Shown here piece after piece: positions 43,717-45,235 of a stretch of 64,000 nucleotides of DNA; the stretch's first letter is position 1; each line of letters begins with the position of its first letter. The DNA comes from Burkholderiaceae bacterium (GTDB lineage Bacteria; Pseudomonadota; Gammaproteobacteria; Burkholderiales; Burkholderiaceae), in NCBI GenBank assembly GCA_947447945.1, contig CANFLR010000003.1, positions 1 to 64,000 of the forward strand, read 5' to 3'. A program made the translations under genes and the position numbers. Below the pieces are notes generated by a model, which saw only the letters and a list, made by a program, of their open reading frames with translations, made no database searches and was not told the origin of the DNA.

Positions 43717-43743
43717 GATACTCGCTAGCCATTGAATCATGGG

Positions 43744-43848
43744 TTAGCGAGCGCAGTTGCAATTAGTAAACCCCGTTTAAGAGCTCGCTCCCTTCAAGCC
43801 TGGGGAAATACTGGTTCTCAGCATTCCTTGCAACGCTCCTTGAAGGTA
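43744..43848 (-). ncRNA. SAH riboswitch aptamer in the ahcY leader
   Basis: Read on the minus strand the leader has CCTTCAAG pairing with CTTGAAGG (43839-43846 and 43791-43798, a perfect 8-base-pair stem), the conserved GGAGCGTTGCAAGG, the CCAGGCTTG segment, and a distal TTGCAACTGCGCTC (43749-43762) that pairs with GAGCGTTGCAA through a two-base bulge, forming the pseudoknot helix. This layout and the GCG-TTGC/CAGGCT sequence agree with the SAH riboswitch family that precedes ahcY in betaproteobacteria. SAH binding turns expression on in studied members. Confidence 0.88.
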
Positions 43849-45081: not shown

Positions 45082-45148
45082 TGCATATTCCTTTAAAAAT
45101 TAACACGATCTGTGGGACAACTCGACGTGCCAGGAACTACAACGGCGA

Positions 45149-45200
45149 CGCTTTAGCAGAATTTTTGAATCGCCCTGCAAGTTGTCTTAACTCGGCGATA
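45149..45200 (-). ncRNA. candidate SAM-II/SAM-V-like riboswitch in the metK leader
   Basis: On the minus strand ATCGCC pairs with GGCGAT around a 19-base loop containing TTAA and CTTGCAG; then 11 bases later comes GCTAAAG, where CTGC can pair back to GCAG in the loop to form a pseudoknot. Stem and loop lengths, the TTAA, TTGCA and GCTAAA elements and the total of about 52 bases agree with SAM-II and the related SAM-V aptamers as I remember them. Upstream of metK, a SAM sensor makes sense. The family assignment needs a covariance search. Confidence 0.55.
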
Positions 45201-45205
45201 GATTG

Positions 45206-45235
45206 ATTTTATCTGAAAAAGTGCAAATTGATCAA
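45206..45235 (-). promoter_or_regulatory. candidate sigma-70 promoter of metK
   Basis: Minus-strand TTGATC (45230-45235) and TAAAAT (45206-45211) are 18 bases apart. Transcription would begin about 7 bases after TAAAAT, right at the first stem of the candidate riboswitch, which supports both calls. Confidence 0.5.

Follow-up and report, generated by a model that had tools for sequence, protein, structure and literature searches.

A SAM-II variant riboswitch candidate in the metK leader of Burkholderiales

The window analyzed here is a 64,000-nucleotide stretch of DNA from a Burkholderiaceae bacterium. Its minus strand carries metK, the product of which is 93-94% identical in protein comparison to MetK of Polynucleobacter, the nearest named relatives. 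The metK leader is about 118 nt long and contains a compact pseudoknot element, the features of which are collected in Table 1. A sigma-70-like promoter (TTGATC-N18-TAAAAT) precedes the element, and the predicted transcript begins at the foot of the stem. A GATARAAT-like box 5-7 nt upstream of P1 recurs in the leaders of the genus that were inspected. The spacer between the 3' strand of P1 and the core is 11 nt, with GCUAAAG at 45157-45151, and the stretch downstream of the stem that pairs back into the loop is GCUAAAGCGUC. An earlier note on this DNA had predicted the promoter, stem, loop, spacer, GCUAAAG and the back-pairing of CUGC, and all of them were located on the minus strand as described there. 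By analogy with the published pocket (PMC6061858), U45155 and A45152 are presumed to be the SAM contacts.

An SAH riboswitch (RF01057, 49.8 bits) is located directly upstream of ahcY (43742-43847, minus strand). Two adjoining methyl-cycle genes in the window each have their own riboswitch, the probable one of metK and the SAH riboswitch of ahcY. A second metK, 68% identical, was found in one genome of the genus (G008:C7:7674-8825).

Table 1. Features of the metK locus in the window.
Feature	Position	Strand	Basis or remark
metK, SAM synthetase gene, 388 aa	43915..45081	(-)	ORF and protein comparison
Whole element: 6-bp stem, 19-nt loop, pseudoknot	45199-45147	(-)	
-35-like hexamer TTGATC	45230..45235	(-)	sequence; 18 nt to -10
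-10 hexamer TAAAAT	45206..45211	(-)	sequence; predicted RNA start at P1
P1 5' strand AUCGCC	45194..45199	(-)	6/6 P1 pairs change on both sides, 66 sequences
19-nt loop GAGUUAAGACAACUUGCAG closed by P1	45193-45175	(-)	sequence
L1 third strand GAGUUAA (SAM-II: GAUUUGA)	45187..45193	(-)	alignments, including the R2 alignment
G in place of SAM-II U10; remaining triplex uridines	G45191; U45190/U45189	(-)	alignments; triplex roles from PMC6061858
P2 5' strand (pseudoknot) GACAACUUGCAG	45175..45186	(-)	near-invariant; inner and outermost pairs covary
P1 3' strand GGCGAU	45169..45174	(-)	covariation, 66 sequences
L3 linker UCAAAAAUU, A-rich like SAM-II	45160..45168	(-)	alignment
P2 3' strand CUGCUAAAGCGUC	45147..45159	(-)	covariation
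Loop GCAG pairing with CUGC 45159-45156	G45178-C45156, C45177-G45157, A45176-U45158, G45175-C45159	(-)	
Further P2 pairs	U45179-A45154, U45180-A45153, C45181-G45151	(-)	
Distal P2 helix GAC/GUC	C45184-G45149, A45185-U45148, G45186-C45147	(-)	
Anti-SD/anti-start strand GCCGUUGUAGUUCCU	45132..45146	(-)	minimum-energy fold; own-versus-cross lineage test
GGCACG, 3' arm of competing hairpin P3; partner CGUCGCC 45150-45144	45126..45131	(-)	CGUCGCC..GGC[AG]CG in 34/34 genus leaders
AGUUGUC, able to pair with loop GACAACU (anti-aptamer)	45116..45122	(-)	GUUGUC in 34/34 genus leaders
Shine-Dalgarno AAAGGA of metK	45089..45094	(-)	masked stretch 45092-45077, start codon included

Covariance models were used to assess the family membership of the element. 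In the Rfam search that the earlier note had proposed, the SAM-II model (SAM_alpha, RF00521) aligned over its full length with the window leader at 18.3 bits (E 0.19 in 1 kb), which is under the gathering score of 36 bits; this score is a database threshold and not a feature of the biological class. SAM_alpha had no match above the cut-off in any of 186 genomes of the genus. In the metK loci of 12 named relatives it had none at the gathering score, and the SAH riboswitch near ahcY is the sole Rfam annotation. As a genome-wide detector, SAM_alpha was set aside, since its best matches among genomes of the genus, with up to 27 bits, fall inside coding genes. The low Rfam score says little by itself, because similar or higher scores arise by chance in coding genes. 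None of the other Rfam families matched the metK element in the leader, SAM_V (RF01826) at E<=10 and SAM/SAH (RF01727) included. The SAM-V likeness suggested in the earlier note is retained in predicted function (translational control, short distal helix), whereas SAM-V identity was ruled out by the lack of a SAM_V match in the window leader at E<=10.

Model R1 was built from metK-type elements only. Model R2 was built from metZ/metX/metH-type SAM-II elements only and contains no metK leader. R2 matched the window with an E value of 1.7e-11, and against the whole genome this was the sole significant match (47.8 bits, E 5.4e-10). All 23 Rfam-certified alphaproteobacterial SAM-II riboswitches were recovered by R2, and 12 of the 23 by R1, weakly but at the correct place. 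The selection of R2 was not fully independent, as most of its members were first found via R1; circularity is guarded against because alphaproteobacterial SAM-II, which is in neither model, is recovered. R1 matches were found in 121 of 200 Burkholderiales genomes, and some of these matches belong to the classical subtype described below. Four classical-type loci of Burkholderiales score above the Rfam SAM-II cut-off.

The structure of the element is supported by covariation. Of 200 Burkholderiaceae genomes, 171 contain a two-block pattern of the element, almost always as a single match, and the reversed control pattern gave 1 match in 200 genomes. In a MAFFT alignment built without structure, 97.7% of the cells pair. 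The larger alignment, with 66 rows (3 of classical type), was fitted to P1 and not to the pseudoknot; 96% of its cells are paired, and 10 of its 16 pairs show compensatory change. Such changes, which the earlier note had proposed to seek by aligning leaders of relatives, affect both sides of all 6 P1 pairs and of 4 pseudoknot pairs (3 in the inner helix, 1 in the distal helix). None of 500 shuffles was as high, and slid controls pair at 34-46%.

P1 and the pseudoknot P2 with its CUUGC/GCUAAAG core, a SAM-II feature, are both present, and the element lies upstream of a SAM/methionine gene, here metK, another feature of the class. In the pocket of SAM-II and SAM-V, the O4 atoms of two uridines are directed toward the SAM sulfonium, and an A binds the aminoacyl part (PMC6061858). 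Both sulfonium-facing uridines and the aminoacyl-binding A are invariant. Of the three L1 triplex uridines, the second and third do not vary, and at the first most metK members have G and some have U. This first position, U10 in SAM-II and U8 in SAM-V, lies opposite the U with which the adenine of SAM pairs (PMC6061858). Position 10 is G in at least 34 of the 47 metK elements and U (GAUUUAA) in 3 of the 47; every classical metZ or metX element has U there, as does the aligned alphaproteobacterial set. The metK element is filed as a SAM-II variant on these structural, model and gene-context features rather than on the Rfam threshold, and the evidence from sequence comparison for SAM-II membership is judged decisive. 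The R2 match, the covariation and the metK linkage bear out the view of the earlier note that a SAM-II-type pseudoknot aptamer lies at the start of the metK transcript. One Polynucleobacter leader (L012 2726-2793, minus strand) carries a tandem duplication in the aptamer loop (GAGTTAAGACAAGTTAAGACAACTTGC), which would double the third strand.

Two subtypes were distinguished. The metK type (GAGUUAA..GACAACUUGC..GCUAAAGCGUCGC) is found on metK, and elsewhere mostly as the second element of tandem arrays. The classical type (GAUUUGA..CAGCUUGC..GCUAAAGCG) is found on metZ, metX and metH. Upstream of metK, 47 metK-type and 0 classical-type elements were counted; upstream of metZ, metH or metX, the numbers were 0 and 34. 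All 34 metK leaders examined in the genus contain the element, and it was also found in other families. By hand tally, the metK type occurs on metK in at least 13 Burkholderiales families, about once per genome. The named carriers are Polynucleobacter, Cupriavidus, Paraburkholderia, Caballeronia, Burkholderia, Pandoraea, Achromobacter, Bordetella, Oxalobacter, Herbaspirillum and Accumulibacter; in Burkholderia and others, the L3 linker holds an inserted hairpin. No match was obtained in Gallionella, Nitrosomonas, a Methylophilaceae record or the gammaproteobacteria searched, bar one weak Marinomonas match (17 bits). The metX leaders of the genus contain no SAM-II element, and metX adjoins an upstream gene there.

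The metK element shares with SAM-II (RF00521) the P1 stem, the GA-UU third strand of L1, the C-RR-CUUGC loop strand, GCUAAAG, the A-rich L3 and the H-type pseudoknot. It differs from SAM-II in the G at U10 in most members, the long L3 inserts, the metK context, the RBS-masking platform and the sub-cut-off Rfam score. In addition, its distal P2 helix has 3 bp (GAC/GUC), whereas that of alphaproteobacterial SAM-II is longer and GC-rich, and UUGC is often followed by 2 contiguous pairs instead of 1 and a bulge. SAM-V (RF01826) has a near-identical SAM-II-like core (PMC6061858), translational control and a short distal helix like that of the metK element. In Pelagibacter it sits at the RBS, like the second element of the Burkholderiales tandem arrays, but it belongs to a different lineage. 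SAM/SAH (RF01727) is also a small H-type pseudoknot on metK; however, it is reported from Rhodobacterales only (PMC2864571) and has another sequence. Leyn et al. 2014 (PMC4239095) described a metXZ element that precedes metX/metZ in the same order, and the elements found there are SAM-II-like. Matched by gene context, pseudoknot and terminator, the metXZ element is probably SAM-II. Compared with the metK element, the elements of metX/metZ leaders represent the other subtype (GAUUUGA, CAGCUUGC), with other genes and a terminator platform. The SAM-II-like elements in metX/metZ leaders (L090, L093 and others) score below or near the Rfam threshold, some above the cut-off.

An expression platform, absent from the earlier note, was also found. 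The strand directly 3' of GCUAAAGCGUCGCC is complementary to the ribosome-binding site of metK. In the minimum-energy fold of the window, GCCGUUGUAGUUCCU pairs with AGGAAUAUGCAAUGGC, spanning the Shine-Dalgarno sequence and AUG. Equivalents are present in other lineages, and the anti-SD helix has at least 12 pairs in Caballeronia/Paraburkholderia-type leaders. The strand differs by lineage and tracks the RBS of its own lineage: the pairing energy is -14.6 kcal/mol with the own SD versus -10.6 kcal/mol with the SD of other lineages (0 of 20000 permutations). The z value of this own-versus-cross test is -8.7 for 34 leaders and -4.9 in the strict version with 16 dissimilar leaders.

Equilibrium folding predicts the RBS to be masked with or without the aptamer, and it was dropped as proof of switching. 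Switching must therefore be kinetic, and only the availability of strands in the nascent RNA is informative. When P1 and P2 were imposed on the nascent RNA, the freed fraction of the anti-SD strand rose from 0.41 to 0.64, compared with 0.43 when a random segment was blocked (p 2.7e-6), and in the window it rose from 0.43 to 0.92. This rise is in agreement with masking that depends on SAM. Hairpin P3 is predicted for only some lineages (mean probability 0.34), and its probability in the window is low (0.07). P3 (CGUCGCC..GGCACG) and the pairing GACAACU:AGUUGUC are conserved in all 34 genus leaders, yet neither is favoured by equilibrium folding; the ON state, as modelled, is less certain. The downstream alternative fold of the earlier note is partly upheld, in that AGUUGUC (45122-45116) can pair with the loop, with conservation within the genus only. 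As an order-wide anti-aptamer AGUUGUC was rejected, being missing from most other families. Downstream GUUGU was likewise rejected as the distal helix of the pseudoknot, because its pairing partner is the region of the start codon and, across the order, GAC/GUC forms the distal pairing. The P1 3' strand with GUCGCC was discarded as a universal alternative, as by eye it is not conserved where P1 differs (L041, L042).

The element is very probably a metK-specific riboswitch of the SAM-II superfamily that turns off metK translation at high SAM. Family membership, covariation, metK linkage and anti-SD/RBS covariation were established by computation; we infer SAM as the ligand, the OFF direction and the co-transcriptional decision. 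Upon SAM binding, the P1 stem and the P2 pseudoknot, GAC/GUC included, would lock up GCUAAAGCGUC. The downstream strand would then be released from its rival upstream folds, either P3 or pairing with GCUAAAGCG, and would pair with the Shine-Dalgarno sequence and start codon of metK. Without SAM, the competing folds would occupy the anti-SD strand during ribosome loading, and in Polynucleobacter the loop pairing GACAACU:AGUUGUC would also be among them.

The same aptamer might act mainly on transcription, through intrinsic termination or through Rho, as is the case for most SAM-II riboswitches. Terminators follow the classical SAM-II of the same order, both in metX leaders and after the first element of tandem arrays, and they are typical of alpha- and betaproteobacterial SAM-II (PMC2258182). 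However, visual inspection of metK leaders revealed no G+C-rich hairpin with a U run, as expected for an intrinsic terminator, downstream of the element, and the covariation of the anti-SD strand with the RBS argues for translation, so that mainly transcriptional control is quite unlikely. The exchange at position 10, opposite the adenine-pairing U (PMC6061858) and differing between the alphaproteobacterial set and most metK elements, could indicate a shifted specificity for SAH or another adenosyl compound. Such a ligand is very unlikely: the sulfonium-facing uridines and the aminoacyl-binding A are invariant, some metK elements retain U10, the metK product makes SAM, and the neighbouring ahcY has its own SAH riboswitch.

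It is extremely unlikely that the leader, although strongly structured, only resembles SAM-II and is read by a protein or small RNA or serves as an RNA thermometer, as all SAM-II core positions bar U10 are kept and an independent SAM-II model recovers the element. A bolder proposal goes beyond a SAM-II variant: the metK subtype would form a separate ligand-binding class in the SAM-II/SAM-V superfamily, in which U10-to-G and the short distal helix alter affinity or specificity, suiting feedback on SAM synthetase, and which arose in Burkholderiales as the translational counterpart of SAM-V. We regard this proposal as unlikely.

SAM-II in betaproteobacteria had already been reported (PMC2258182), and Bordetella was included in the 2005 SAM-II alignment (PMC1273637), so the range of SAM-II is not widened, which the earlier note had offered as one of two outcomes. 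Its other suggestion, a new variant of SAM-II, stands, and the novelty is the order-wide metK subtype. Leyn et al. 2014 described betaproteobacterial metK as lacking a known regulator after an unsuccessful search (PMC4239095), and a riboswitch listing for B. cenocepacia gives SAH and sucA (PMC4603805). No description of a SAM-II element on betaproteobacterial metK was found in the open-access papers searched, and an earlier listing in a supplement is possible. The element is a candidate for the regulation of SAM synthetase in a large bacterial order, and the so far unexplained metXZ element is probably tied to SAM-II. The two subtypes offer a natural experiment on one ligand-pocket position, U10 versus G10. 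With an updated covariance model, the annotation of many genomes would change.

Tandem SAM-II arrays that combine terminator and RBS platforms were already known (PMC9481103). In the arrays found here (L118, L129, L131, L135, L150, L152, L161, L166, L167, L175, L178), a classical element with a terminator is followed by a metK-type element near the RBS. These arrays precede a small ORF of no assigned function that starts with MYDC or MFDC. The next gene encodes a MATE-family transporter (Pfam MatE) in L129, L131, L152 and L167; judging from this gene order, the MATE exporter is apparently under SAM control. Other metK-type elements lie upstream of a MoxR-like AAA ATPase gene (L124, L125, L224 and L228; L228 is a tandem, and L124 matches Pfam AAA_5).

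Two records, L242 and L249, titled Mycobacteriaceae and Bordetella parapertussis (metagenome-assembled), carry a metK 81% identical to that of the window, and for those contigs the labels look doubtful. Rfam RF02424, the predicted Burkholderia sRNA Bp2_287, gives sub-cut-off matches on the strand opposite to SAM-II elements at L129 1587-1723 (+), L131 1311-1446 (-), L127, L132, L164 and L116. RF02424 might be a riboswitch whose strand was misassigned.
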